NCBI GenBank assembly: GCA_024180945.1
Contig: JAKSGN010000023.1
Coordinates: 434,001 to 498,000 of the forward strand
DNA: 64,000 bases
DNA from: Macrophomina tecta
Lineage: Eukaryota > Ascomycota > Dothideomycetes > Botryosphaeriales > Botryosphaeriaceae
Reading direction: 5' to 3'
Below, piece by piece: positions 1 to 63,170 of the stretch. Each line of letters starts with the position of its first letter. Within the stretch, counting starts at the first letter, position 1. The position numbers and the translations under genes were made by a program. A model generated the notes under the pieces. It was not told the origin of the DNA. It saw only the letters and a list, made by a program, of their open reading frames with translations, and searched no databases.

Positions 1-922
1 CCGGTTGATGTAGGCAGCAGCCTGGGTGATTGCAAGAGGCGTGTAATCGAGAGCACGCAGTAGATCCACCGCGCCTTCCTCGGCCGACGTGTCCTGCAGC
101 TTATTGCGGAGAAGCTGCAAGCTTTGGCTCTCATCCATCACGCGCACCTCTCTAATTCGATTATAGCCTCCAGCCAGCCTAGCTGCTGCATCCTTGTTCC
201 GAGACGTGATTAGAATCGATCCGTTGCGGCTTTGGGGGAGGTACGACGCTAGCGATGCCGACGCGCCTTCGAGTAGCTCGCCCTGCCCGCGCCCTCGCGG
301 TGGGAAGAAGGTCTTGACATCGTCGGCATTGTCCAGGATCATCGTCCATCGTCCATTCGCCTCGTCGCACAGCCAGGTGTAGACTAGTCGTAGAACGTTC
401 GCCTTTGGATCGTGACGCCCAGGAAGCGCGAGTCTGTCTGCGAGGCCTCTGTACGCTTCTTCGAACCGGATCTTGGTGCTGGCGTGCACCCAGAGCACGA
501 ACGTGTGCGGTGTCGCATCGCGGACACTATGGGCATATTGGATGGCTAGCTGTGACTTTCTTCGTCTCGTCAGCACTGTAGTTTTTAGGAAGTAGACGTT
601 GACATACCCCACGCCGCCGAGGCCGACGAGCGCCGCCCGAGCGCCAGGTCCGGCGCACTTGTCGCGGATCCACGCTAAGATCTCGGGCCGATCCACGAAG
701 TCAGGGTCTGGGGCGAAAGGGACGGTGGAGAAGGGCTCGCGTTTGCGGGTGGAGCCGTCTATAGGGGTGTATTAGCCTTGTGGTGCGGGCTGCTGGCTGT
801 TGGTTAGCGCATTCACCTTGCCCCGGCGGATAGCCGAAGTTAAAGTTGTTCGTCCCGCCGGCGGCGGCATAGGCGCCAGGAATATTGATATTGCCGTCAA
901 GATTTCCGTGGAAGGTGCTCAT
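1..922 (-). CDS. NB-ARC receptor (NLR), copy 1, 3' part beyond the window
   Basis: Partial gene on the minus strand: exon 1 922-817, exon 2 758-608, exon 3 559-1, running off the left edge. Introns are 816-759 (donor GTGAAT, acceptor ATAG) and 607-560 (GTATGT, branch CTGAC). Exon 1 encodes a short N-terminal motif (MSTFHGNLDG, then IPG, GGT and NFNF), followed by the NB-ARC P-loop rebuilt across intron 2 (GLGGVGKSQ), a Walker B-like MILDNADD, an ITSRN segment and a PLAITQAA segment resembling the GLPLA box. No stop or frame break occurs in the visible part. Exon lengths 1 and 2 (106 and 151 bp) equal those of the complete paralogue at 5163-7617, which lies in opposite orientation. The expected role is a STAND/NLR signalling ATPase. 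An alternative start upstream (codons from 1045) would give an odd N-terminus and corresponds to the 5' flank of the paralogue, so I start at 922. Confidence 0.85.
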
Positions 923-1072: not shown

Positions 1073-1335
1073 TCATCTACTAGGCTTCAAAAGCTGCTCA
1101 TGGGCTAACCATAGCATCAGACGTTATGATGGAGGCGATATTTTCTTACGCCGTGCAACAAGGCAATGCTTCTAGTATTGTTCTTCACAATGAGTTCAGA
1201 TTTTCTTCATGCCGAAAAGCGAGTCGCGGAAGAATTCTAGAAGCATCGATAGGCCAATCCAGCCACGTGGCCTCTGAGTCTGCTGCCTGGCGCTGCAGCT
1301 CGTCTCTCATCCCCCATCATGATCAGCATCGTAGA
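1073..1335. other. Intergenic stretch before pogo-type transposase
   Basis: No supportable gene. The transposase frame is open from an ATG at 1126, but the homologous protein at 11049 begins at the residue equivalent to 1336, so this stretch is probably the element's 5' untranslated part. I found no convincing terminal inverted repeat here. Confidence 0.4.
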
Positions 1336-3006
1336 ATGGATCCCGCCAGTGCTGTGCTGTCCGAAGGCCTTGGACCCTCGAAACCTAAAACGTATACTGC
1401 CCTATCAGAGTCCAGTAATGTCCCTATCTCTACGCTGTGGCACCGCGCGCACGGACGACCCTCGAGAGAAGATAAAGCAAAGAGTCAACAGTACCTCAGC
1501 CCTTCGGAAGAGAAAGCTCTCATTGAGTACCTATTGCGAATGTCTAACAATGGCTTCCCTATTCCGATTAAATACCTGCGTCCGCTGGCGCTCGTTATTG
1601 CGCGCCAGCGCTCCTCTGTCTTCCAAGCTCCTGCGACGGACGAAACGATCCAGCCTCCTGGCAAGAACTGGCCTCAGGCCTTCTGCAACCGCCATCCCGA
1701 GCTTAAAGCGAAAAGAGTCAAGGCGCTAGATTGGAATCGGCACGACAATAACATCTACGATAAGATAAGGCACTGGTTTGAGACCATCGGGAAAGAGCTA
1801 CATGATCCCGTCGTTGTGCCGGAGAATGTTTACAATATGGACGAAACGGGAGTCATGTTAAGCATGCTTGCTTCCCTCAAGGTCCTGGTAGGTAAGGATG
1901 ACCTGCGAGCTTATAGAGGTGCAGGCGTCAAACGGACAACCGTGACGGCGATCGAGTGCATTTCTGCAGATGGCAGGTGTCTCTTCCCACTGGTAATCTG
2001 GCCAGCAGCAACTCATCGAAACATATGGACTGTGTACCCAACTCCTGGATGGCATTTTGCGTGCTCTCAATCTGGATACACGGACTCCAGGATCAGCCTG
2101 CACTGGGTCAAACACGTGTTTGACCCGCAGACCAAATTACGGGCGAACCAGAAGCCACGGATTCTTATCTGCGACGGCTTCGGGACGCATGAGTCGCTCG
2201 AAGTCATGCAGTATTGTTTTGAAAACAACATCATTCTCTGCCGTATTCCGTCTCACACCTCCCATAAGCTCCAGCCCTGTGACGTTGGAGTTTTTGGCCC
2301 ACTGAAGACGGCATATCGAGAACAGGTTGAGCGGCTATATCGAGGAGGTGCAAATACAGTTGGAAAGCAGCATTTTACTTCTCTCTATAGCCGTGCACGC
2401 GAACAGGCACTTACCCCGCGAAACATCAAGTCAGGCTGGGCAAAGGTAGGTTTGTATCCATTCAGCCCAGACAAGGTACTTGGAGGCATCCAAATGCCAC
2501 TAGCCGAACTGCGTATCCCTCAGGAAGGTAAGGCGAAGGCGGAATCTTGTCCACGCGAAGTAATCCAAACGCCCGTGACGTTGGAGGCTCTTACTTTGCT
2601 GCATGACCAAATCGAACAGGATGCGCATACGCTCGATGGTCGGAGCAGACAGCGCCTACGTAAGCTGGCCAATGCTGCTCAAAAATCCTTTGCTGAATGC
2701 GCTCTTCTTCTCGATGAGAACCGGCTCTTGTTCGAGCAGAACAATGAAAGCAATTGCCGGAAATCGGCCAGGTCAACGGTGGTCGGGAAGGCGAAAGTAA
2801 TGAGCTATGAGGACATCGTTCAAGCACAAGCGAAGCGTGATGCAAAAGAAGCTGCTATGGTTAAAGGGAAACGTAGTTCCAAACGTGAGAGCGCTACGCC
2901 TACAGTGGCACAGGCTAAAAGAAAAAGGAAGAGCGAAGCAGAAGCTGCAGAGGAGGAGATAGAGGCACTAGGGCTAGGGAGTTACTGCTCTGTTCTGAAA
3001 TTTTGA
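1336..3006 (+). CDS. Fot1/pogo-type DDE transposase (copy 1)
   Basis: An intronless frame of 556 codons plus stop for a Tc1/mariner-superfamily transposase of the pogo/Fot1 branch. It has an N-terminal helix-turn-helix region, a CENP-B-like middle (PPGKNWPQAF, KALDWNRHDNNIY) and a DDE_1 catalytic core with acidic residues in NMDETGVM, ICDGFGTH and LQPCDVGVF. A basic C-terminal tail (KRKRKSEAEA) may serve nuclear entry. The frame could start at 1126, but alignment with the second copy (11049-12779, same family, clearly diverged) supports MDPASAVLSEG at 1336. The gene lies between the two inverted NLR copies and appears intact. No flanking terminal repeats were identified, so the element's borders are unknown. 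Confidence 0.88.
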   Translation: MDPASAVLSEGLGPSKPKTYTALSESSNVPISTLWHRAHGRPSREDKAKSQQYLSPSEEKALIEYLLRMSNNGFPIPIKYLRPLALVIARQRSSVFQAPATDETIQPPGKNWPQAFCNRHPELKAKRVKALDWNRHDNNIYDKIRHWFETIGKELHDPVVVPENVYNMDETGVMLSMLASLKVLVGKDDLRAYRGAGVKRTTVTAIECISADGRCLFPLVIWPAATHRNIWTVYPTPGWHFACSQSGYTDSRISLHWVKHVFDPQTKLRANQKPRILICDGFGTHESLEVMQYCFENNIILCRIPSHTSHKLQPCDVGVFGPLKTAYREQVERLYRGGANTVGKQHFTSLYSRAREQALTPRNIKSGWAKVGLYPFSPDKVLGGIQMPLAELRIPQEGKAKAESCPREVIQTPVTLEALTLLHDQIEQDAHTLDGRSRQRLRKLANAAQKSFAECALLLDENRLLFEQNNESNCRKSARSTVVGKAKVMSYEDIVQAQAKRDAKEAAMVKGKRSSKRESATPTVAQAKRKRKSEAEAAEEEIEALGLGSYCSVLKF

Positions 3007-3531: not shown

Positions 3532-4689
3532 TCATCCAGGGAAATTGAAGTTGACTGTACCGCCGGTGGTGTGAGCTCCAGGAATCACATACCGACCAGA
3601 GATGGCACCGTTGAAAACAGGGCCGTTGTATGAAGTTCTTCCACCAGCACTGTCATCGGTCGTTGATGCGCTCTCCGCTTCGCTAATATCCGAACGGCCA
3701 ACGTTGCTTTCAAATTCCTGCATCCATCGTTCCAGCACACCTCGGACCTGACCGTATCCCGGGTCCGCTCTTCCAGTGAACTTCGTCATGTCCCGATGAT
3801 CTGCATTGATGCTGCAGTTGTCATATGCAGGGAGTATCGCAGACTCTCGTTCCACAATCTTGCCGATCATGTCGTCCATCTTGAGAGCCTCGTAGAAGCA
3901 GTATATCTTCAGCTTAATGTCGTCTCGTCGAAGCATGTGCTGAAAGTCTTCTTCAGTCCTCTGTAGGTCCGAGGAGCCCGGCTCTAGATTTCGCAAGATC
4001 TCCCGGTTTGTGCCGCGGAATATGTTCACGTATTTTGCCACGGTGTTTCCCCAATTTGCCACACGTGAGCCTCCATGAGGAGTACCCATGAACACGATAC
4101 CTAGCGTATTGGACAGAACGGTCCCCAAGTCCTGTCTTTTGTTGCTGAGATTTAGAGCTTCCTCACACACCAAACCCCCAAGGCTGTGAGCGATGAATAT
4201 GATCGGTCGTTGGCTGATTTGTGCTCGCTGATCGAGAAGCGCGTACGCTAACGACTTCCCATGGTCGTTCAGCCGATTCGAGCTTGCGATGGTCCAGAAG
4301 CGGACAACGTCGGCGTCGTATCCGAATGTCATGATGCGAGCGCGGGGAAAGTCTTGAGAGAGGAGGGCGCCTGGCCAGAAAATTCCGTTGGGATGCGTCC
4401 ATGTCTTGTTACGGTTCCCTGTGAGTCCATGAACAAAGACGATACTGGAAACACAAGTCAGCGTATAGCGAGATGCTATGCCGCGGAGTCCTTACTCAAC
4501 AACTGCATCCGGAGGATCAGCAACTACCCTGATTCCGATTGATCCGTCGGTCGCATATCTGTATCGTTATCAGCAATGGCCAGACATTTAGAAAACTGCT
4601 TACAGCTCATTGTCAGCGCCCGTGTCAGGCCCGGAAGTGACTTCGGTGCGAGAGCCCGATGACTGCGCTGGTTTCTTAAAGATAGGCAT
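3532..4689 (-). CDS. SesB-like alpha/beta hydrolase with C-terminal amyloid-type motif
   Basis: Three exons on the minus strand: 4689-4604, 4558-4496 and 4444-3532, giving 353 residues. Intron 1 (45 nt, GTAAGC...ACAG) and intron 2 (51 nt, GTAAGG...CCAG) fit phase exactly. The fold is the lipase/SERAC1-like serine hydrolase used as effector domain in fungal NLR systems: IVFVHGLTGNRNKTWTH (51-67), GYDAD, nucleophile elbow AHSLGG with Ser137, FMGTPHGGS, and a likely catalytic His266 in ADHRDM. After an acidic Ser/Thr linker the last 30 residues (324-353) carry GPVFNGAISGRYVIPG, GGT and NFNF, a motif also found at the N-terminus of both neighbouring receptors. Known fungal pairs of this design (sesB and its NLR) link receptor and effector by amyloid templating. 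The gene is divergent from NLR copy 2 and shares its 473-bp upstream region. The hydrolase call is firm; the signalling role is inferred. Confidence 0.88.
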
Positions 4690-5162
4690 AGTGCAAGTGA
4701 CGGCGTTGAAGAAGCCGACACTTTGGCTCACTACTACAACTAGATTGACAGTGCTGGATAAAGCCTGCGATGGGTTGATGGTTGAGCTATTACGGCGCAG
4801 CCCTCACAAGTGGTGAGGACACCGAAAGGACAAGGTCAGAAGAATACGAAGCGGGGAACGAGATCGCGTGACAATCCGCGCTCAGCCAGAGCCCCCGGCT
4901 CAGAATGCCAAGACCTACCGAGCGACAATGCAGAACTGAGGCAAGCGGCTTAACTCGCACACCACGCTTAGCACTAACGGAGGAACCGAGCCAACCTCGC
5001 CCACTGGAAGAGGCCCGGTGTGACACAAGCTAGGCTGCGTCGACTGCGGCTGAGCCCCCGCCAAGCGAGGCTAACATCGCCAACAGCTCAGCTCGTGACC
5101 CTCCAACTTTCCAACTCCATCATCCTCACAGGAAGACGCGAGCCTCGCATTAAGGGTAGAAA
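4690..5162. promoter_or_regulatory. Shared divergent upstream region of hydrolase and NLR copy 2
   Basis: 473 bp lie between the two start codons, so both genes probably share control elements. The part near the NLR (from about 5008) is homologous to the 5' flank of NLR copy 1. No specific operator is recognised. Confidence 0.45.
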
Positions 5163-6075
5163 ATGAGCATCTTCCAGGGAAGCCTTCACGGACGCGTCGT
5201 TATTCCCGGTACCTACACCGCGACCGGCGGAACGACGAACTTCCACATCAGCTCTTCACCAGGCCGAGGTAAATGCACTAACTGGCAGCCAGTGCCCTGT
5301 GGCTAACAGGCCCATAGATAGCTCCACCCAGAAACGCGAGCCCTTCTCTACCGTCCCGTTCGCCCCAGACCCTGACTTTGTGGATCGGCCCGAGATCCTA
5401 GCGTGGATCCGCGACAGGTGCGCGGGCCCTGGCGCTCGGGCGGCGCTCGTCGGCCTCGGCGGCGTGGGGTATGTCAACGTCTACTTCCTAAAAACTACAG
5501 TGCTGACGAGACGAAGAAAGTCACAGCTAGCCATCCAATATGCCCATAGTGTCCGCGATGCGACACCGCACACGTTCGTGCTCTGGGTGCACGCCAGCAC
5601 CAAGATCCGGTTCGAAGAAGCGTACAGAGGCCTCGCAGACAGACTCGCGCTTCCTGGGCGTCACGATCCAAAGGCGAACGTTCTACGACTAGTCTACACC
5701 TGGCTGTGCGACGAGGCGAATGGACGATGGACGATGATCCTGGACAATGCCGACGATGTCAAGACCTTCTTCCCACCGCGAGGGCGCGGGCAGGGCGAGC
5801 TACTCGAAGGCGCGTCGGCATCGCTAGCGGCGTACCTCCCCCAAAGCCGTAACGGATCGATTCTGATCACCTCTCGGAACAAGGACGCGGCAGCCCGGCT
5901 GGCTGGAGGCTATAATCACATCAGAGAGGTGCGCGCGATGGATGAGAGCCAAGGCCTACAGCTTCTCCGCATCAAGTTGCAGGACATTTCGACCGAAGAA
6001 GGCGCGGGAGATCTGCTGCGTGCTCTCGACCACTTGCCTCTTGCAATCACCCAGGCTGCTGCCTACATCAACCGG
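5008..6075 (+). repeat. Right arm of inverted NLR duplication
   Basis: Inverted partner of 1-1072. Homology begins near 5008 in the 5' flank (GAGGCCC...CTGCGGCTGAG is shared) and continues at least to 6075, where the left copy leaves the window. Confidence 0.9.
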
Positions 6076-7617
6076 CGAGCTCGCATGACGATACTAGCCT
6101 ATCTAAAAGAGTTTCGCGCGAACGACACGAAGAGAAGAAAGCTCCTATATTTAGACGCAGGCGACTTGCGTCGGGATGGGAGCGCATCGAACTCGGTGGT
6201 GACGACATGGCAGATGTCGTTCGAACGCATCCGGCAAGAGCGGCCCTCCGCTGCCGATCTGCTGTCGCTCATGAGCTTCTTCAATCCCCAAGGCATTCCA
6301 GAGCCGATACTCCGAGGATTCAGCATAGCTGCAGTAGAACCGGGCTGCGAAGACGAGGCTGATGACATGTTTGACGAGGACTTTGACACCCTGCAGGCGT
6401 ACTCGCTCATAGCCGCAACGGCCGAGCCTAACATGTGTGAGATGCATGCTCTCGTGCAGTTCTGCACGCAAGTGTGGCTATCGTCGTCTGGTGATACGGA
6501 GCGGTGGAAGCGGGAGTACGTAGAGCTGATGGCACGAGAGTTTCCTACCGGAGAATTTGAGAACTGGGCACGTTGCCAGCAGCTACTTCCGCATGTCGAG
6601 CGGCTTCTTGACGCTGAGCCAGCGGCCGACGAGTTGCTAGAGGCATTAGCTCAGGTCCTCACAAATGTTGCGTGGTACATGTCGATGAAAGGAGGCTATA
6701 AGACGGGGGAAAAGGTAGCAAGAAAGGCGGTCACGGCTAGAGAGAGTGTGTTAGGACCGGATGACGAACGGACACTGATGAGCGTTAGCGTTTTGGCGGG
6801 CGTGCTGCAGGATCAGGGGAAGTACGGCGAGGCGGAGGAGCTGAACCGGCGGGCGCTAGAAGGGTACGAGAAGGAGCTGGGGGTGCAGCACCCGTATACG
6901 CTAACGAGCGTGAGCAACCTGGCGAGCGTGCTGCGGGCTCAGGGAAAGTACGGCGAGGCAGAGGAGCTGAACCGGCGGGCGCTGGAAGGGTACGAGAAGG
7001 AGCTGGGGGTGCAGCACCCTTCTACGCTGACGAGCATGAGTAACCTGGCGAGCGTGCTGCGGGATCAGGGGAAGTACGGCGAGGCGGAGAAGCTGAACCG
7101 GCGGGCGCTGGAAGGGAGGGAGAAGGAGCTGGGAGTGCAGCACCCGAATACGCTGACGAGTGTGAGCAACCTGGCGTTGGTGCTGCAGGCTCAGGGGAAG
7201 TACGGCGAGGCAGAGGAGCTTCAGCGGCGGGCGCTGGAAGGGAGGGAGAAGGAGCTGGGGGAGCGGCACCCGCATACGCTCATCTCTGTCTACAACCTCG
7301 CTTATCTTTTACACCAACAGCAGCGGTACGATGAAGCAAGCCAGCTGTACCAGCGAACATGCAACGGCTTCAAACAGGCGCTCGGTCCTCAGCACCCAAC
7401 AACTACGGCCTGTCTCAATCACTTCTCAGCCGTGCAGCAAGAAGCAACACAAGCTAGGCTCGAGCAAAGCCAGAAACCGGTTCACAACGATAGGACACCC
7501 GTTGGTGACGTTGTCCGTCCTGAACCCCGATCCGAGTCAGCAAGCAGCAGGCAGGGAAATAAGAAAAGCTCAATCGTCATGCGTCTAAAGGAAAGATTCC
7601 GTAGAAAAGCTTCGTAG
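5163..7617 (+). CDS. NB-ARC/TPR receptor (fungal NLR), copy 2, complete
   Basis: Three exons, 5163-5268, 5318-5468 and 5517-7617, give 785 residues. Intron 1 (49 nt, GTAAAT, branch GCTAAC, CATAG) and intron 2 (48 nt, GTATGT, branch GCTGAC, GAAG) restore frame; intron 2 is itself in frame and would otherwise break the P-loop. Order of parts: N-terminal motif (MSIFQGSLHGRVVIPG, then GGT and NF; residues 1-35), NB-ARC with Walker A GLGGVGKSQ (Lys87), Walker B-like MILDNADD (about 158-165), ITSRN (about 200), LPLAITQAAAYIN (about 260), a winged-helix-like region, then TPR_12/kinesin-light-chain-type repeats of 42 residues (about 505-730) and a basic tail. A STAND ATPase with TPR sensor and no large effector domain is expected to act through a partner. 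The adjacent hydrolase carries the same short motif, which makes it the likely partner. Confidence 0.92.
6817..7320 (+). repeat. Four near-identical 126-bp TPR-coding tandem repeats
   Basis: Units start at 6817, 6943, 7069 and 7195, each coding 42 residues that begin G-K-Y-G-E-A-E and contain RRALEG, KELG and HP..TL. They differ at only a few positions. Degenerate units lie on both sides (about 6691 and 7321). Such homogenised repeats are typical of variable fungal NLR sensor domains. Confidence 0.9.
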
Positions 7618-8432
7618 CCTAGACAGCACTTTTAATATCTATCTGCTTTTTAATAGCGTCTTGTTTTCATGCTGTGAATAACAGATCGAATGATGCGTAC
7701 AGTGACGAGAATCAAAGACCTTGCTAGACCCCTGTAACGTACCAGCATCAGCTGGTAACCATTGGGTAAAGCTATTGCAACATGGACCGTGCGCTACAAG
7801 CGAACAGGTCGTAAACTCGGCTGCTGTTTCCATTCGCAACAGTAAAAAAAAACAAGCTGATCTTGCTTTACGCGCAGTCTTCGTACTTAGTAAGAACAGC
7901 TCAGCGCATCGCGGCTAGCCGAGATTGGCCAAAGCTGCGCTGACAAGTACCGCCCTGCGTGGCGGACTCTCCTACTACACCACGTATCCTGCTGCTAGTA
8001 GTATTACAGTACGCGGTATAACACCGGAGGATATATGCGTCTCACCAACTAGATTTTCTAGGAGAAAAAAGCATTGGTGGTGCTATAGTAGAGCAATATC
8101 GTTCGCAGCATCAAGACTCATCCTGTAGGAATCAGGTAAGGGAACAGCCACGCCTGTGTAATATTAAATTTAAAACATTTCGCAAGTAGATTAAACGGCC
8201 GTAGAATATTCCCAGCATAGTTTTATAAGAATTTCTACATAGATACGCCTATGAAGTTGCTGCAAACTCGAAGTACCTCGGGCTTTTTTCGGCACACAGG
8301 GTTTTTCGTCACACCGGGGGGGAGGTTAGTAACAAATTATTCGACCTAACTAATTAATACCGCTCTATTTGCGCTAACTTGTTCCACAATCGAGTGCATC
8401 ACACAAGCGAGTGCATCACCCCATTAAACCTC
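7618..8432. other. Intergenic, no gene seen
   Basis: Short frames only. At 8278-8325 there is a sequence (TTTCGGCACACAGGG and a GGAGGTTAGTA box) with relatives near 10872 and 43490, probably old transposon ends. Confidence 0.4.
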
Positions 8433-8475: not shown

Positions 8476-8938
8476 GATTTTGTGAAAAAGACATCTTAAA
8501 ACCTTGTTCTTTAGGTATATAGAGCTTTGATTGATAAATAAATATTCTATGGCTATCTGACTCTAGGATCCTAGCTTTTCTTTGGGTTTTGCTTCGTGGT
8601 CGTCGTGCAATACGTCGATTCGTCGACGCCGTCAATCGGCAAATTATCAATCCACCCCTGTTTTTTCAGGACATGCAAGACCTCTCTTAAATTCGGATGT
8701 TTGAGAAGAGAGATCGATCATTAAAGAAATTTTTCCGAGCCATGAAGTTCGATTTGACTGGAGGAAGATGTTTTCCGAGAGTTTCGCCGTCGGCTGATTG
8801 ACCTTGAAATCCTTTGATGTTTTAGTGGTCCTTTGTGTGCATTAGCGTGGCTGACAAAGCGCGGTATTGAATGGTACTCTTCTCTAGCCATCCGTCCATG
8901 GGGTAACCTCCCCCCCTGTATGGCGAAGGACCCCTATG

Positions 8939-9388
8939 TGTTACAAACCTGACTTGGGGGATGGCGGCGCTTAAGAACGACAGGACAACAAGGCGGCCGA
9001 CAAGAAAGCTACCCCGCGTCAGCCTACGTTAGGTAATCGATCACGTGACATATGGCACGTGATGTCCCATGAGACCTCACGATGTCCCACACTGGGAAAC
9101 CGTGGGATCTCATGGAATCCCATGGGACAAGGGGAGACGTCCCATGAGAACATACATGTATATAGAACCCACGAAAGGCCCTTGTGGCATTTCGTGTTCA
9201 ACTTGATAGTTCAACTTGATAGTTGTCTTGTTTACAATCAGAACAGATTGTCTATTCAATACTCTCTATTGCACTCGTGCTCTACTCTTTACTCAATCCC
9301 CGAGAACCAACCCTAGCCTCCGGCTTATTCATATCCAACCCCTTTCGGCTAGTACGATCACTGTTTAAGCCACCAGGCGTTTAACACC
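8939..9388 (+). repeat. Candidate solo LTR (TGTTACAAACC...AACA)
   Basis: Starts TGTTACAAACCT and may end near TTTAACA. It contains a cluster of TCCCATG-type palindromic boxes (9065-9150), a TATATAG box (about 9158) and a duplicated TTCAACTTGATAG. The first ~62 bp recur at 10460-10521 downstream of the MAPEG gene. No target duplication was found, so the right border is uncertain. Confidence 0.45.
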
Positions 9389-10013
9389 TCGTTGCGATGT
9401 TGGATCGTGAGAGTCTGATATGTTGTAATTTATTTCCACGCCAGTACATATATGGTTAGCGCTAGGGACAAATCTCAAAAACGTGGGGACAAATCTCATC
9501 AGCCTATGAAATATGCCGATATGAAATATTAAAGTGGCAACCTTTACGCACGGACCCGGCGCTATTGAACTATTACCCTTGAGACCACAGTAGTGCGACA
9601 TAAGAACTACCTAGCGCGGCCGCAACGTTAAGCTTCCAGATAGATATAAGTAGCTCAGATTGATCGCAAGTATCCTGTTATTACTACGCTATAAAATCCC
9701 GTGATAATAGCTATTGTATGTAGCTCTACAGCCTCATTTTTCTATGTAGCTGATTTGATGTTCGCGATCGCCACGCGCACGGACACGGTACCAGTGGTTT
9801 GTAAGCCACTGATTTGTAATCAGGACTGGAGTCGGACCGTTCACTATAAGCGCCATGCGGCGCACCAACAAGGTAGGTTCCTATATATTCGATAATCGCA
9901 GCGTTCCCCTCTATCCAAGGCCACATTCATTCTAAATCATTGTTCCTCTGCAGCCTCGAAGATACGACAATTGCACCGCTTTGTTGTGCCCAAACTGTTG
10001 TCCAACGCCTACA

Positions 10014-10451
10014 ATGTCCGCGCTCCTTGCCAACAAACCTCTCCTCGGCCCCCTTGTCGGCCTTAACGCTTGGACTTTTGCTATGGAAGCCCTTCTATAC
10101 AAACGCAGAATCCCCGCGCTTTCAAAGTACGACGTCAGCTTCGACCCGGCAACCGTCAAAAAGCAGAAAGCAGAAAAGTTGCCAGCTTTCGTCCAATGGC
10201 CGGCTGATAATTTCAACAACTTACTGGAACAACCTACTCAGTTCTACGCAGTATTGCTGGGGTTGAGCCTTCTGGACGTCAAGGATAAGCGGACGGTTCG
10301 TTTGGCGTGGGCTTATGTGGGGCTGAGATTGGTACACAGCGTTATACATGTCTCTACCAATAATGTTTCCCTGCGCTTTCCAGTCTTTGCTGCGAGTTCG
10401 GTCGCGCTACTCGGACTCACAGCTGAGGCAGCTTGGAAGCTTTTGGTCTGA
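10014..10451 (+). CDS. MAPEG-family membrane protein
   Basis: 145 residues, intronless. I start at 10014, which sits in a good ACAATG context; upstream codons in frame (from 9981) contain no ATG. MAPEG-like features are NLLEQPTQFYAVLLGLSLL (the family's N-x-x-E-x-P region), an R-L-V-H-S-V-I-H helix and several hydrophobic segments expected to form a four-helix membrane protein. Family members are glutathione-dependent or related membrane enzymes; fungal homologues are mostly uncharacterised, so no substrate is proposed. The gene sits inside the 5-kb TIR unit and is followed by an LTR-like fragment at 10460, so it may be cargo or simply host DNA trapped between transposon ends. Confidence 0.75.
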   Translation: MSALLANKPLLGPLVGLNAWTFAMEALLYKRRIPALSKYDVSFDPATVKKQKAEKLPAFVQWPADNFNNLLEQPTQFYAVLLGLSLLDVKDKRTVRLAWAYVGLRLVHSVIHVSTNNVSLRFPVFAASSVALLGLTAEAAWKLLV

Positions 10452-10459
10452 GTGCCTAG

Positions 10460-10521
10460 TGTTACAAACCTACCTGAGGGGATGGCGACGCTTAAGAATG
10501 ACAAGACAACGAGCCGAATGT
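10460..10521 (+). repeat. Fragment repeating the LTR-like sequence of 8939-9001
   Basis: Starts GTGTTACAAACCT and continues with GGGATGGCGACGCTTAAGAA; similarity stops after about 62 bp. Confidence 0.6.
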
Positions 10522-11048
10522 GACGCAGCGATTCCTCGAGCATGGCGAACAGAGCGTTGCGTTTTTGCACGAAGAAGTCTGTCCTTGAGATAAGCGCAAT
10601 ACGGTCTGCTAGGTTTTGTGGGCTGTTCTCTTCATTAGGGAAAGCGCCAGCAATAGGATAGGTTAGCATTAAAGCGGCGGAAATAGTGTTATAGCGTTAA
10701 AGTACTCTGAACGCAAATAAACCGACAAGACAGCAAACCCTATGTAATTTTTAGTTGCAATCTGTTGCCTACCTAGAACAATGCCTAAGTATACGGTCGC
10801 TAATTTCTTAATGAAAATAATAAAATTTGAGCTGGTTAGTCTGCTATGAAGTCGAGGTATCACTTATTTCTTTCGGGATGCAGGGGTCTTTCGGCACACA
10901 GGGGATGAGGTTATTATTCCTTTTTTAGAATCAGCCACCACGTGCCCAGTTTCATTGTTTCCACCGTGTCCTTTGGCGCCGGGCATCCCCCCACACCGTT
11001 GATCGCTGCACCTCAAAGCCCTCAACACCACCACTATAGCCAACCAAT

Positions 11049-12779
11049 ATGGACAAGGCCAGCCGAGTATTATCTCAAGGGGTTCCACCTGGTGTACCGC
11101 ACTCGTATCGAGCGCTAGCAGACCACGGCAACGTCCCAAAGTCTACCCTCCACCGTCGTGCACACGGTCAACGCTCGATTGAGGAGAAGGCCCAAAGCCA
11201 ACAATATCTCACCGTTTACGAAGAAGATGCCCTCGCTAAATTTGTCTTACAGTTAGCCGATCTTGGACAACCCGTTCGAATAAAGTTTCTACCCTCGTTA
11301 GCCTTCTGCCTTGCCCGGCACCGAATAGAATCGAGTAGACCGTCCAAGCCTCCAGGCAAGAACTGGGCGAAGGCATTCCAGGATCGACATCCAGAGGTTC
11401 GAGCGAGAACAGTCAAGGCGCTAGACTGGAATCGTCACGAGAAGAACATCTATAATAAAGTAACGCAGTGGTTCGACGTCGTTGAAAGGGTACTACGTGA
11501 TCCAGCTGTCCTGGCAGAGAATGTCTACAACATGGATGAGACCGGAGTGATGCTGTCCATGCTAGGCTCTGTAAAGGTCCTTTTAGGTAAGAACGACATG
11601 CGAACCTATAGGGGAGCGCGTGTCAAGCGTGAAGTCGTGACGGCTGTCGAATGCGTTAGCGCTGATGGTAGGTATCTGAACCCTATGATTATCTGGCCAG
11701 CTGCGACTCATCGGAGTAACTGGACTACCTTTCCTACCCCTGGATGGCAGTATGCGCTGTCTGAGTCTGGATACACAGACTCTTACCTTAGTCTACAGTG
11801 GCTGAAGCGTATTTTCGACCCTGAAACTAAGGAACGAGCTCAGCATAAGTCTGGAGCACTCAAACCTCGAGTGCTGATTTGCGATGGTTTTGGCACGCAC
11901 GAGACCCTTGAAATCCTGGAGTTCTGTCTCTCAAACAACATTATATTGTGTCGACTTCCCTCTCACACCTCCCACAAGTTGCAGCCGTGCGACGTCTCCA
12001 CATTCTCCCCTCTGAAGACGGCCTATCGTGAGCAAGTCGAACGACTAGAGCGAGGCGGTGTTAATACAGTAGGCAAGGAGCATTTCATTTATCTGTATAG
12101 CCCTGCGAGAAGCAAAGCCTTCACACCACGGAACATTAAGGCTGGCTTTGCTGCATGCGGATTGTTTCCATTCAACCCAGATCGAGTGCTTGAGACTATG
12201 CCAAAGCCCCCACCTGAGCTGATCACTCCAAAAGCCGACGGGGTGACGGTAGGGCCTTGTCGTCCAGTTGAAACTAGTCTACCGCAAGACGCGGTGCAGT
12301 CGCCGAAGACACCAGTGACAGCGGAAGGTCTTGTATCGCTACAAAATCTGATTTTCCAGCAACATACGACCTGCTCTCAGAATGAGACGACTAGACAGCG
12401 CCTACAGAGGCTTATCCAGAAGCTTGCTAAAGCCGCCCAGATGTCTTTCGCCAAGGGCATACTCCAGCAGAATCACATTCAATTCCTAGTGGCGATTAAC
12501 AACGAAGCGAAGGTCCGGCGGGCAACTAAACCAAAAGTACTAGGAACGGCAAGAGTTATGAGTTATCAGGACCTTGTAGAGGCTCGGGCGAAGCGGGCTG
12601 AGAAGGATGCTGCTAAAGAGAAAGGGAAAGGGAAACGTGGTCGAAAACGCAAGAATACTGCGTCAGAAACAGACGGGACTGAAGCAAATGCGTTAGAGCC
12701 ACAGGCAAAGAAGACGCGTGTCAGTGAGGTGTTAGACTTACAGCATCCATGGAGCGTCCCAGTGGCGAAGATGTATTGA
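11049..12779 (+). CDS. Fot1/pogo-type DDE transposase (copy 2)
   Basis: An intact, intronless frame of 576 residues, homologous along its length to the product at 1336-3006. It has an N-terminal HTH (VPKSTLHRRAHG), PPGKNWAKAF and KALDWNRHEKNIY in the CENP-B-like part, then the catalytic Asp163 (NMDETGVM), Asp279 (LICDGFGTH) and Asp315 (LQPCDVSTF). The spacing between the second and third residues is 35, as in DD35D pogo/Fot1 enzymes. A Lys/Arg-rich tail follows. It lies within the TIR pair 8433/13434, so the protein could mobilise that unit. All key residues are present; activity is not shown by sequence alone. Confidence 0.92.
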   Translation: MDKASRVLSQGVPPGVPHSYRALADHGNVPKSTLHRRAHGQRSIEEKAQSQQYLTVYEEDALAKFVLQLADLGQPVRIKFLPSLAFCLARHRIESSRPSKPPGKNWAKAFQDRHPEVRARTVKALDWNRHEKNIYNKVTQWFDVVERVLRDPAVLAENVYNMDETGVMLSMLGSVKVLLGKNDMRTYRGARVKREVVTAVECVSADGRYLNPMIIWPAATHRSNWTTFPTPGWQYALSESGYTDSYLSLQWLKRIFDPETKERAQHKSGALKPRVLICDGFGTHETLEILEFCLSNNIILCRLPSHTSHKLQPCDVSTFSPLKTAYREQVERLERGGVNTVGKEHFIYLYSPARSKAFTPRNIKAGFAACGLFPFNPDRVLETMPKPPPELITPKADGVTVGPCRPVETSLPQDAVQSPKTPVTAEGLVSLQNLIFQQHTTCSQNETTRQRLQRLIQKLAKAAQMSFAKGILQQNHIQFLVAINNEAKVRRATKPKVLGTARVMSYQDLVEARAKRAEKDAAKEKGKGKRGRKRKNTASETDGTEANALEPQAKKTRVSEVLDLQHPWSVPVAKMY

Positions 12780-59310: not shown

Positions 59311-62300
59311 ATAGTAGTGGCATTAACGTCTATCTGTACTAACTTAATAGCTAGTTTGCCTCCCATGGGGCTTATTGACGGGTGGAGTAGCCACCTTTTC
59401 GCTGGACAAATGAGATCCTCCGCTTCCTACCTAGTTTTTATTACAGGTCATGCTGTGCAGCCGCCTTGTTGGCCGCCCCAGCGGTCCGCGAGTTAGACTC
59501 GCGGTCTCATCCATTTACAGTGCCTTGGCATCCGCCCCGGAACACCGCCGTTGATTCAAGGAGGTTTTGAAAGAGAAACCACCCCGTTGGTCCGAGGAGG
59601 TTCCTAATCTTCTCTGCTCTCGTCGCAGTTCCTGGATACTCCCAGCCCGCTGCCAGGCGGCAGTCGATAAAGTGCCATTGCGCCTTCTCAGCGCCGCATT
59701 TGCAGGTAAGTTCTGCCCTTTCGTGCTTAGCGCGTCTGTGGTATTCGGCGAAATCCCCGTGTCCCGTTCTTTCGGCTATCAGCCGGTATAGCGTCTGCCT
59801 TGGTAGCGCCAGCTCGGGGTTCCTTCCCTTTCTTATCTTGAGGCCTAGGTGTTGGTAGGTTGGTGTTTGGTGCTCCTCCCACCAGGCCTCGTAGATACGC
59901 GACCTCTCCTCCCTGTTCCTCCGCCTTGTCCAGGATACCGATGCCGGCCCCTGTTCGTCATTTTGTAGACCGATGGCTGCCTTCGCTAGCTGATCGGCCT
60001 CCTCGTTTCCCGTGATTCCCATATGGCCAGGGCACCACCTAGTCTCCACTGGGATTGGGAGCTCCTGTCTCGTGCTCTTTAGCCTCGTGAATTGGCTCTG
60101 TGAGCTAGCCGGGGTGTGCCCGTCTATGCCTTGTATGACTGACGTGTTGTCTATGCATAGCGTGACGTTCGTAGCCTGTAGGGCTTCTGCGTTGGCGGCC
60201 GCCCACGCGAGTCCTTCTGCTGCGCCTCGGATCTCCGCGTCAAACACCTCCGCCTTGTGTAGGCTTCCGCTTTGGGCATGGATCCGTGCGCCGTGACTAT
60301 AGGCAACGAAGGCCCAGGCGGTCTTCGAGTTCATGCTTGAGCCATCCGAATAGATATGTAAAGTTTCCGGTGGGTCTCGTTTCAGTGATTCTGCAAATTC
60401 CTTTGTTCCCCTCTCTTTCCCCTGCACCGTCTTTTGGGGGCTATTGGTGTAGCTCGGCTGTAGTAGCTGGGGTCTTTCGCAGTCTTCCACGAGCTGCGCC
60501 GTTCTCTGTAGCCTTGTGGCCCTCGGCGGCGAATTGGGGGCCCTCGGTGCCCATCCCCCGTGTCCTCTTATGACCTGTGTCCGCCCGACGATTGGGTGTG
60601 CCTCGTCCAGCAGCCGTAAGCGAAGTGATGCTCTTCTCTGGATCTGCTGTAGGAGTACGCTTGCCGGTGGGATCCCTGTCTCGCGGTGGAGCACCGGGAT
60701 CGGGGTCGTTCTCCATACGGGTACTACAGCCCGGGCCGCTGTCCGCAGCGCTCTATCAATAGTCGCCGTATGGTATGATTGTCTCGGTATTACCGTCCTG
60801 GCAGTGTATGGTATCGGCTTCATTGTTCCTTCATACCAGACCTCCGCGCCGTACGTGGCGACCGGGAGCATGCATGCGTGTGCGGCTTTCGCCGCTGCTG
60901 CCGGGGGCATTCCCTTCATAACCTGGTTTAGGCCTCTGAGGTGTGCTGCGACTCTGCTGCCTTTAGAACCCCATACTTCGGCGTGATGCCTAAAGTTAAG
61001 CTTTTGGTCAAAGTAGACCCCTAGCCATCGGACTGGCTTTTCTTTAGGGCGGATTACCGTCTCTCCTACTTGGATCGTTTCGGATAGTTCTGAGGATCTA
61101 CTTCTTGAGAAGTGAATAAGTTCATACTTATCTGGCGCGAAGGCGATTGCGTTCTCCTCCCCCCAGCAGAGCGCATCCTCTAGGTCAGCCGTAAGGGCCT
61201 CAGTTGTCTCTTCTGTGTTTTTCCCAGTGCGTAGGAAGGCGACATCGTCGGAGTATGCGAACCTCGTCTGTACGTTCCTCCGCTTTAGCAGCGGCGAGAG
61301 GTAGAGCATATAGAGGATTGGCGAGGCTGGAGATCCCTGCGGGACCCCACACTGCAGCTCCTTCTCGTCTGTGGTGACTCCTTCCATGCGGACCCTGGCT
61401 TTGCGTCTGGTGACGAACTCCTGCGTCCACCTTACCACCCGCTCTGGCCAGCCCTGCTCCCGTAACCGCTTTATCAGTCGGTTCGGTAGTACCGCGTCAA
61501 AGGCGCCCTGCACGTCCATCATTAGCATTGAGGCCTCTTGGTGCTTTAGCAGCGCTTGTTCGATGTCGTGTGCGGCGCAGGCGGCGAGGTCTAGTGCGGA
61601 GCGCTGTGGTAGCGCCCCAAAGTGTTGTGGGCTAAGTAGATTCAGCTTTACCGCCAGGTAGGACATCCTTCTTGCCACGAGCCGTTCTAGTCCCTTGCCG
61701 AGGCACGAGAGTAGCGCGATTGGTCGGTAGGCACGAACACTTGAGGGATCCCTTCCCGTCTTAGGGATAATGGCAACCTCTGCGGTCCGAAAGGCCTTGG
61801 GGTGGTATCCTTGCTGTAGGCAGCCTTGATATAGAGCAGCTACTATATTCCCGATTTCCGGCCAGGCGGCCTGGAGCAGCCTGACCGTTACCCCGTCCGT
61901 GCCAGGCGTGGTGTTCCCGGTTTTGATGCAGTGTGCTTCTGCTTCCGCCAGCGTAACCTCTTCCTCCCACGGGATCTCCTCTGGTTTCGTGTCTAGTGGG
62001 CACCATGGGTCTGGGATGTCCTGGTCCGCATTAAAGCGGTATAGGATTTTTTCCCGGAGGAGTTCGGTCTTATCCCTTGGGTTTGTAATTGCCCTACCCC
62101 CGTCAACTAGCGGCGGGGACCTGAAGCGGTCAGTTGCTTTATGCCAGGCCGTGATCCGGAAGAGGTCCTGGTTGTCTTTCGCGTTGGCGATCTGGTCCTC
62201 CCAGTACCGCCGTTTTGTCTTCCTGACTACGTTGCGTAGTGCTTCTTCTGCCTCCTGCCGCTCCTCAGGGAAGGATTCCCTAAGGCGGCGCACCGCTGCC

Positions 62301-63005
62301 TTGCAGTCTTCGTTCCACCACGCAGCAGGCTTGCCCTTTGTCGCGGCTTCCTTCCCTACCACGGCTATGGCCTCCTGCAGTAGCTCAACTAGCGCGCGCG
62401 TGGTCCGCTCTAGGCCTTCCCTTGTGCCTGTGTCGGCCGTGATCGTGCCTATGTTCCTCTTCACGGCCTGTCGAAAATCTGCAAGCCGGTCCTCGTGCAC
62501 TGTAAGCTTTCGCGTTCCTGCCCGGGTCTGGGTTTGGGAGGGAATGTTGGTCCACAGCGTGTGGTGATCCGATCCTGTACTTAGTTCCTCTAGCACCTGA
62601 GTCTCCGTTCCTGGGATGTTCGTGAATACTAGGTCTATAGTGTTGCCTTGTTTGTGCGTGGGGCCGTCTGGGTTCGTATTAAAGAGCCCCTGGTTTTCAG
62701 CCCATTCCGCTACCCGGGTGCCAGGGCCCCCATGCCGGCCGTGTCCCGGCTGCCAGGTCCAGTGTACCGCGTTGAAATCGCCTGCTACTACTGTGTTCTG
62801 GGGTGGCTCCCATGCCTCTAGCTCCGCTAGCGGGGCGTCTGTTCTAGGGGGTTTGTAGACGTTGGCTATCGTTATACTATTTACCTCTACTACGCAGGCG
62901 TTAGGCGTGTCGAAGGGACGTATTTGGAAAGACTGTAGGCTCAGCGTCTTTCTCACGTATATTAGGACCCTTGGGGGCATCGACCAGTCGTCTTGTGGGG
63001 CAAAG
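59311..63005 (-). mobile_element. 5'-truncated LINE (Tad1/I-like) inserted in LTR C2
   Basis: A 3.7-kb non-LTR retrotransposon on the minus strand, flanked by a 12-bp target duplication GAGAGGGAGGTA (59299-59310 and 63006-63017). The coding frame runs open into the 5' junction at 63005, so the element lacks its first ORF and the beginning of the endonuclease, the usual result of incomplete reverse transcription. The 3' part after the stop is 196 bp with no long poly-A. Confidence 0.92.
59507..62980 (-). CDS. LINE endonuclease / reverse transcriptase / RNase H (partial)
   Basis: 1157 codons from the first ATG at 62980, though the frame is open through the truncation point (APQDDWS precedes the Met). 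Order: AP-endonuclease-like domain lacking its N-terminus (VVAGDFNAVHW, IDLVFTNIPG, GSDHHTLW); reverse transcriptase (AYRPIALLSCLGKGLERL, QGAFDAVL, LQCGVPQGSPASPILY, active site FAYSDDVAF); RNase H with acidic residues in IYSDGSS, DAEIRGA, LCIDN and GNEEADQLAKAA; and a C-terminal Cys/His segment (CKCGAEKAQWHFIDC). RNase H plus the terminal zinc-like motif fits fungal Tad1/I-type LINEs. No internal stop, suggesting a recent insertion; truncation makes it non-autonomous. Confidence 0.93.
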   Translation of the reverse strand: MPPRVLIYVRKTLSLQSFQIRPFDTPNACVVEVNSITIANVYKPPRTDAPLAELEAWEPPQNTVVAGDFNAVHWTWQPGHGRHGGPGTRVAEWAENQGLFNTNPDGPTHKQGNTIDLVFTNIPGTETQVLEELSTGSDHHTLWTNIPSQTQTRAGTRKLTVHEDRLADFRQAVKRNIGTITADTGTREGLERTTRALVELLQEAIAVVGKEAATKGKPAAWWNEDCKAAVRRLRESFPEERQEAEEALRNVVRKTKRRYWEDQIANAKDNQDLFRITAWHKATDRFRSPPLVDGGRAITNPRDKTELLREKILYRFNADQDIPDPWCPLDTKPEEIPWEEEVTLAEAEAHCIKTGNTTPGTDGVTVRLLQAAWPEIGNIVAALYQGCLQQGYHPKAFRTAEVAIIPKTGRDPSSVRAYRPIALLSCLGKGLERLVARRMSYLAVKLNLLSPQHFGALPQRSALDLAACAAHDIEQALLKHQEASMLMMDVQGAFDAVLPNRLIKRLREQGWPERVVRWTQEFVTRRKARVRMEGVTTDEKELQCGVPQGSPASPILYMLYLSPLLKRRNVQTRFAYSDDVAFLRTGKNTEETTEALTADLEDALCWGEENAIAFAPDKYELIHFSRSRSSELSETIQVGETVIRPKEKPVRWLGVYFDQKLNFRHHAEVWGSKGSRVAAHLRGLNQVMKGMPPAAAAKAAHACMLPVATYGAEVWYEGTMKPIPYTARTVIPRQSYHTATIDRALRTAARAVVPVWRTTPIPVLHRETGIPPASVLLQQIQRRASLRLRLLDEAHPIVGRTQVIRGHGGWAPRAPNSPPRATRLQRTAQLVEDCERPQLLQPSYTNSPQKTVQGKERGTKEFAESLKRDPPETLHIYSDGSSMNSKTAWAFVAYSHGARIHAQSGSLHKAEVFDAEIRGAAEGLAWAAANAEALQATNVTLCIDNTSVIQGIDGHTPASSQSQFTRLKSTRQELPIPVETRWCPGHMGITGNEEADQLAKAAIGLQNDEQGPASVSWTRRRNREERSRIYEAWWEEHQTPTYQHLGLKIRKGRNPELALPRQTLYRLIAERTGHGDFAEYHRRAKHERAELTCKCGAEKAQWHFIDCRLAAGWEYPGTATRAEKIRNLLGPTGWFLFQNLLESTAVFRGGCQGTVNG

Positions 63006-63170
63006 GAGAGGGAGGTAAGTAGGCTTGCTTATATACATAAATGAGTGCTTGAATAACCGAGGAGAGTAGAAGCCGATATTGTTATCCGAAGCTTGTGAAG
63101 ATGAGGAGTTGTGAGAAAGTGGCAAAGAGTAGATGCTGATCTGAGGCAGAATAGTCTGACAGTTCCATCA

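Follow-up and report, generated by a model that had tools for sequence, protein, structure and literature searches.

The stretch of DNA analysed here, a window of 64,000 nucleotides from the ascomycete Macrophomina tecta (positions 434,001 to 498,000 of contig JAKSGN010000023.1, C21 below, in assembly GCA_024180945.1), begins inside a four-gene element in which a pogo/Fot1-type transposase and a serine hydrolase lie between two inverted genes for NOD-like receptors (NLRs). The hydrolase gene occupies 3532..4689 on the minus strand; spliced by hand, its exons 4689-4604, 4558-4496 and 4444-3532 give a protein of 353 aa that closes with a 30-residue C-terminal motif (3535..3624, minus strand; hydrolase end NGPVFNGAISGRYVIPGAHTTGGTVNFNFPG). 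The right NLR gene lies at 5163..7617 on the plus strand, where the hand-spliced exons 5163-5268, 5318-5468 and 5517-7617 encode 785 aa, and carries its first-exon motif at 5163..5264 (plus strand; MSIFQGSLHGRVVIPGTYTATGGTTNFHISSSPG; receptor start MSIFQGSLHGRVVIPGTYTATGGTTNFHISSS). The 5′ part of the left NLR gene fills 1..922 on the minus strand (exon 1 922-817, exon 2 758-608, exon 3 from 559 leftward); the whole gene is intact, encodes 1499 aa and runs beyond the window to about C21:430320, and its own first-exon motif lies at 815..922 (minus strand; MSTFHGNLDGNINIPGAYAAAGGTNNFNFGYPPGQ). Window 1-770 is an inverted copy of 5306-6075, with 94% identity. The transposase open reading frame (ORF) runs from stop to stop over 1084..3006 on the plus strand, with a likely start at ATG 1336 and no internal stop. 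The outer part of the right arm (7618..8328, assigned to neither strand) closes with a terminal inverted repeat (TIR) whose outward end, ...GGGGGGGAGGTTA, falls at 8328. An earlier note on this DNA had proposed the hydrolase and the right NLR as a candidate cell-death signalling pair; the second, inverted NLR with its motif, the transposase ORF and the terminus were absent from it. The window gave no Rfam match at gathering scores.

The four-gene module occurs four times on C21, in both orientations, and each copy has a transposase and a single hydrolase, flanked by two NLRs that lie in the arms, inverted to each other. These copies are element A (C21:200743-214614, 13872 bp), element B, to which the window belongs (C21:429563-442328, 12766 bp, with its left terminus outside the window and its right terminus at window 8328), element C (C21:754821-766965, 12145 bp) and element D (C21:934251-945229, 10979 bp). 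When the eight outer ends are aligned, the inverted repeat TAACCTCCCCCC… is found in all of them, the left end of D being one base off, and the homology stops at a common terminus, TAACCTCCCCCCCGGTG.., with none continuing outward. The inverted arms are about 79-92% identical and hold the NLR genes. The TIR pattern, with up to two mismatches allowed, occurs 29 times in the genome and 22 times on C21, a contig of 1.57 Mb that makes up 2.9% of the assembly; eight of the occurrences on C21 are the element ends, and a reversed control pattern gave none. The transposase combines a DDE_1 domain (111.5 bits) with a Tc5-type helix-turn-helix and DD35D spacing, and its frame is open in B and C. There are also two relics, one on C18 with a hydrolase and an NLR start and one on C10 with a hydrolase and, about 6 kb off, a transposase that is 90-92% identical. 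Because of the ends and the four copies, we regard a transposon-borne module as strongly supported. NLR relatives by a TIR-like site on C29 were considered as a fifth element and set aside, since by eye these NLRs are of the HET and PNP types and the only trace of a transposase nearby is a relic. Repeat-induced point mutation was likewise dismissed as the source of copy divergence, the composite index being negative in the four elements and both relics.

The hydrolase belongs, according to Pfam, to the DUF676/SesB-like alpha/beta hydrolases. Each residue of its candidate triad (Ser137, Glu235 and His266) is identical in 50 of 50 aligned rows, and the lipase BlEst2 is the best of the four solved structures matched by its sequence (E 1.3e-7). 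The structure modelled for the homologue P0001 finds its matches among hydrolases, lipases and thioesterases; its mean predicted local distance difference test score (pLDDT) is 75.2, with values of at least 90 at 156 of 351 residues. In the same model, the linker and motif score about 43-53, and the last 30 residues about 45-53; this low confidence fits, as expected, an unfolded tail. The right NLR begins with the motif and continues with the P-loop GLGGVGKS at residue 81, the NB-ARC domain, DUF7779 (37.3 bits) and TPR repeats.

The hydrolase C-terminus and the NLR first exon both contain the pattern F-x-G-x-[IL]-x-G-x3-I-P-G…GGTxNF, with spacers of 4 and 5 residues. The placement described in the earlier note held up in the spliced models, with the motif at the very C-terminus of the hydrolase and at the N-terminus of the receptor, as did its assignment to a separate receptor exon: the motif fills exon 1, where all eight NLRs of the four elements carry it. 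Searched against the 54.1 Mb genome in six frames (E<=10), the hydrolase tail matched ten sites, namely six hydrolase copies and four NLR first exons, and the first-exon motif of the left NLR matched nine, every one an NLR first exon. Pooled, the two queries identify 15 sites (six hydrolase ends and nine NLR first exons), all in the elements or their two relics; these searches score only first-look candidates (10 and 9), so that weaker copies could be missed. Forty hydrolase tails of other species, those of 120 listed hydrolases that fitted the tail pattern used, were combined into a profile, which gave E-values between 3.9e-8 and 0.019 for each of the eight NLR N-termini of this genome. At E<1e-3 it recognised 36 of 128 NLR N-termini and 3 of 3852 decoys; the three decoy matches are real motif copies inside P0033 and P0167, and not one of the 2560 decoys made by shuffling reached E<0.1. 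For rows picked by regular expression for parts of the pattern, aligning hydrolase tails with NLR heads in hhalign gave a score of 55.7, and 30 column shuffles reached no more than 12.8. Because of this pre-selection, the tests with unselected targets, that is, the hidden Markov model against the 128 N-termini and the genome searches, carry more weight. We consider the motif pairing of hydrolase and NLR confirmed.

The same motif is found in both kinds of protein in other ascomycetes. Among the matches listed, hydrolase tails like VFNGPISGRYVIPGxxTTGGTVNFNF occur in Melanomma, Lindgomyces and others, and Melanomma, Curvularia, Alternaria and Lentithecium have NLR heads like FHGPIDGHxVIPGTHTAAGGTTNFNF, of which Colletotrichum and Zopfia show variants; the head pattern used fits 44 of 120 listed NLRs. 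Ten named organisms appear in both listed sets, and in four of them (Melanomma, Zopfia, Tricladium and Trichoglossum) the contigs that bear a listed hydrolase and a listed NLR are of equal size, and the two Trichoglossum genes have consecutive tags. None of the transposase homologues listed from other species (120 of 1091) was tied to a contig with a hydrolase and an NLR. Two further observations concern these genomes. In Colletotrichum chrysophilum, the single predicted protein P0167 contains ...GGPVFNGPISGHN... followed by MAESIFNGEIHGRNVVAAPHAAHGGTNNFYF and an NB-ARC domain, and is probably two adjacent genes fused by annotation, an effector of another type with one copy of the same motif and an NLR with a second copy; by eye the effector part is nucleoside-phosphorylase-like, and Pfam did not report a phosphorylase. 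In Alternaria rosae, the motif-bearing NLRs J4E91_011127 and J4E91_011130 (P0128 and P0154) are three tags apart on a contig of equal size, a spacing that would fit the order NLR-transposase-hydrolase-NLR.

We consider it probable that the four elements of 11–14 kb, bounded by shared inverted repeats and likely self-moved, each carry two NLRs and one SesB-like hydrolase that share a motif predicted to pass on an amyloid fold, likely killing cells. The mobility of the element is what we infer from its sequence, and amyloid templating and cell death are likely by analogy with NWD2/HET-S, the system on which every step of the following mechanism is modelled. A ligand would bind the variable TPR region of a receptor, whose NB-ARC domain would then oligomerise it and cluster the first-exon motifs. 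The clustered motifs would nucleate a cross-beta fold that templates the otherwise unfolded hydrolase tail and recruits the hydrolase, which, concentrated or activated with its putative triad of Ser137, Glu235 and His266, would act on lipids or membranes and kill. Two different receptors would feed a single effector. As cargo of the transposon, the circuit as a whole would be both spread and maintained. The motif could instead be a non-amyloid docking tail, acting for example by beta-strand pairing or through a common adaptor and lacking a self-templating fold. Its shortness, the proline at its centre and the failure to match any of the amyloid-motif profiles tried agree with such a tail, which we nevertheless think unlikely: the receptor N-terminal and effector C-terminal placement is that of the experimentally supported NWD2/HET-S pair (PMC4344463), and the Gly/Asn/aromatic composition of the motif and the low predicted order of the tail also point towards amyloid.

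Selection on the cargo was estimated from the ratio of non-synonymous to synonymous substitution rates (dN/dS). For the hydrolases of the four elements, pooled over their six pairwise comparisons, the catalytic domain has a dN/dS of 0.06 and the tail motif one of 0.09, against 0.44 for the linker between them; the tail is thus about as constrained as the enzyme, while the linker preceding it drifts. The value is 0.19 for NLR codons 37-165, the NB-ARC region, in seven copies (0.35 when the frameshifted left NLR of C, left out of that figure, is included), and 0.09 for the transposase between B and C. The hydrolase, its tail motif, the NB-ARC domain and the transposase are thus under purifying selection. 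All four elements have an open main hydrolase exon, six of the eight NLRs are full length (659 to 1499 aa, with a varying number of TPRs), and every element keeps at least one full-length NLR. Such constraint, with a linker free to drift between core and tail, and the persistence of an open hydrolase exon beside a full-length NLR in each element render it quite improbable that the genes are hitchhiking cargo of no present function whose copies persist by transposition alone, a view to which the broken NLR copies, the relics and the three element hydrolases off the exact tail pattern lend some weight. The part of the earlier note that proposed a receptor/effector pair with a common terminal amyloid-type motif is well supported: in other ascomycetes, too, both proteins carry the motif, purifying selection acts on the hydrolase tail, and searches of this genome found the motif only in the pair and its relics. 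What has to be revised is the nature of the pair, which is no host gene pair but transposon cargo with two receptors per hydrolase.

The two NLRs of one element show a pattern of their own. Their NB-ARC regions (codons 37-165) are 100% identical in D and 97% identical in B, and their motif exons only 70-75%, while exon 1 of the left NLR of B matches that of the right NLR of D at 100% identity. Only 6 of the 105 possible pairings give a motif identity within pairs that equals or falls below the real one; the identities of 0.63-0.67 for the left NLR of C include its out-of-frame part. The pattern in B and D is suggestive of gene conversion sparing exon 1, or of exon exchange between elements.

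That the module is a host NLR/hydrolase cluster, a two-gene allorecognition locus that was segmentally duplicated and hit by an unrelated pogo transposon, is very improbable even though published accounts treat fungal NLR/effector pairs as host loci (PMC3321046), related transposases and TIRs are numerous on the same contig, and some element flanks have repeats in common (a 2.5 kb block, 100% identical, 0.1 kb outside the right end of B and 1.7 kb outside the left end of D, and a 0.6 kb block beside the left end of A and 4.5 kb beyond B), for these flank repeats stop short of the ends, where no homology runs outward, the transposase sits at the same internal place in all four copies, the shared inverted repeats bound the whole module, and neither a motif copy nor a hydrolase more than 40% identical was found in the genome outside an element or relic.

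Several observations nevertheless weigh against a mobile amyloid-signalling circuit, the reading that we prefer. As regards the transposon, two of the four transposases carry stops (one in D and several in A), and the TA present at all eight element ends is the only target site duplication and is itself contained in the TIR pattern, so that it is weak evidence of duplication. As regards the motif, the exact pattern occurs in only one of the four element hydrolases, that of B in the window; the tails of A and C read GGTVTF, that of C also without one Gly, and that of D reads GRTVTF. It occurs in six of the eight NLR first exons, the right NLR of A having IAG for IPG and the left NLR of D reading FQEQV. 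The dN/dS values of tail and linker rest on few changes, because both stretches are short (12 non-synonymous and 38 synonymous changes in the tail, summed over the six pairs), and NLR exon 1, with 0.42 in eight copies, indicates weaker constraint on the motif of the receptor. Two of the eight NLRs are broken, the left NLR of A ending early and that of C being frameshifted, and NB-ARC scores 19.6 bits in the right NLR, below the Pfam cut-off of 23.5, although the relative P0121 passes with 29.2 bits. Finally, in six of the ten organisms with both proteins, the listed hydrolase and NLR are on contigs of different size, and the Melanomma NLR on the equal-size contig is a partial record without its N-terminus.

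Other sequences that resemble mobile elements lie in the window and elsewhere on C21. Window 8904-10913 is an element of 2.0 kb whose ends are of the same type (left end TAACCTCCCCCCCTG.., right end with two mismatches); it holds a MAPEG-family gene at 9936-10451 (PF01124, 90.6 bits) and has a 100% identical copy at C21:930035-932044, beside element D. A second DDE_1 transposase at window 11040-12779 is about 55% identical to that of the element and has an equal-score copy at C21:928286-929947. Paired TIR ends about 1 kb apart on C21 (e.g., 1171184/1172176 and 1098995/1099987) look like short non-autonomous relatives. Farther along, an open frame of 1173 aa at window 59507-63028 on the minus strand has endonuclease, reverse-transcriptase and RNase H-like segments and is, by eye, similar to long interspersed nuclear elements.

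From a biological perspective, fungal NLRs paired with effectors through amyloid motifs, SesB-like lipases among them, are known (PMC3321046, PMC5485727) and have been treated in the literature as host loci. A complete receptor-effector circuit carried as cargo by a DDE transposon would let incompatibility or immune circuits pass directly from one locus to another, and perhaps from one species to another, in parallel to the bacterial defence systems on mobile elements. It also offers a natural case of one effector served by two receptors, of which the four elements provide matched copies. The motif, set apart from sigma, PP and PUASM by their written definitions, is a candidate new amyloid motif that is accessible to tests with short peptides. 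One could also imagine, more tentatively, a self-mobile immune circuit, with two NLRs encoded in the long inverted arms of the transposon and their shared amyloid-switched killer hydrolase in its core, that serves the transposon for selfish exclusion or addiction and whose motif forms a family separate from sigma, PP, HRAM and PUASM. If this were true, the circuit would kill cells on the arrival of a rival nucleus, a mycovirus or a competing element, or when its own balance is lost in them.

Among the motif families of fungi, those supported by effectors are PP, HRAM, sigma and PUASM (PMC9815663). A close arrangement is the sesA/sesB/het-eN cluster of Nectria haematococca, where the C-terminal motif of a SesB-type hydrolase is found again at the N-terminus of the adjacent NLR, the NLR gene has a 5′ intron, and sesB homologues more generally adjoin STAND genes with a common terminal motif (PMC3321046); here, in contrast, there are two NLRs per hydrolase and the cluster lies inside a transposon. 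The sigma motif consists of three repeats of motif A (GxGxQFNxx) and motif B (GGTQNINT) (PMC3321046). By reading, it shares with the motif described here a GGT-x-N block, but the latter is one short unit with a single B-like block. The NACHT_sigma profile (PF17106) had no match in the genome at E<=10, the sole genome match of Ses_B (PF17046, cut-off 23.2 bits) scored 13.5 bits on another contig, and Ses_B was not among the families that Pfam gave for 42 hydrolases (25 of 26 listed). Membership in sigma or Ses_B was rejected on these grounds, the motif being a single unit that lacks a passing Pfam match in the genome or in the 42 hydrolases, although the resemblance of the GGTxNF block to sigma unit B makes a distant kinship possible. 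The motif peptides on their own matched nothing in Pfam, which is a weak test because HMMER filters drop short matches.

PP and PUASM were compared with the motif by reading. PP has the Gln-centred consensus FxGx(x)NxGLQLxGxNxGxL (PMC3321046), and in the PNT1/HELLP/SBP set an NLR controls a lipase-like effector through a common terminal motif (PMC5485727), as is proposed here. The tails of the four element hydrolases, in contrast, have no Gln and end in GGTxNF or a close variant, and PP membership was rejected for want of a Gln centre in these tails; Gln is found in the motif spacer of relic F and of several homologues. The PUASM pairs similarly place a C-terminal motif on an enzyme effector, but their pattern FxGxGxQxxGxGxF and PNP_UDP effectors (PMC9815663) differ from the pattern and the DUF676 effector found here, and PUASM was also set aside. 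One of the NLR motifs left unassigned in PMC9815663 may be the receptor half of the present motif. In the HRAM system, NWD2 templates HET-S through a common motif that is N-terminal in the NLR (PMC4344463). The divergent neighbouring genes and the receptor N-terminal and effector C-terminal copies are shared with our pair, and templating has been shown for NWD2/HET-S; HET-S, however, is a pore-former with two 21-residue repeats, whereas the effector here is a hydrolase with one motif and is not of the HeLo type that characterises HRAM effectors. The likeness to the HET-S/NWD2 and sesB pairs drawn in the earlier note therefore stands for the architecture and not for motif membership, since the motif falls outside the published definitions of sigma, PP and PUASM.

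The element itself resembles the pogo/Fot1 transposons of fungi in its DDE_1 transposase, DD35D spacing, which occurs in pogo groups 33 to 40 (PMC7325037), TIRs, TA at the ends and many related copies. It differs from them in its length of 11-14 kb, its four genes and its long inverted arms with NLR genes, pogo/Fot1 elements being transposase-only. We found no description of a DDE transposon with an NLR-effector circuit in the literature, with most subscription papers outside the search. Nor was a Starship captain found: the mobility gene is DDE_1 and the other long ORFs listed for B fall within or overlap the four known genes, not every ORF having been scanned against Pfam. Like our elements, Starships are fungal transposons with incompatibility-type cargo, and one putative NLR is described on a Gaeumannomyces Starship (PMC12134995). 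However, Starships use a tyrosine recombinase and extend over hundreds of kilobases, whereas the elements described here combine a DDE transposase with a complete receptor-effector circuit.

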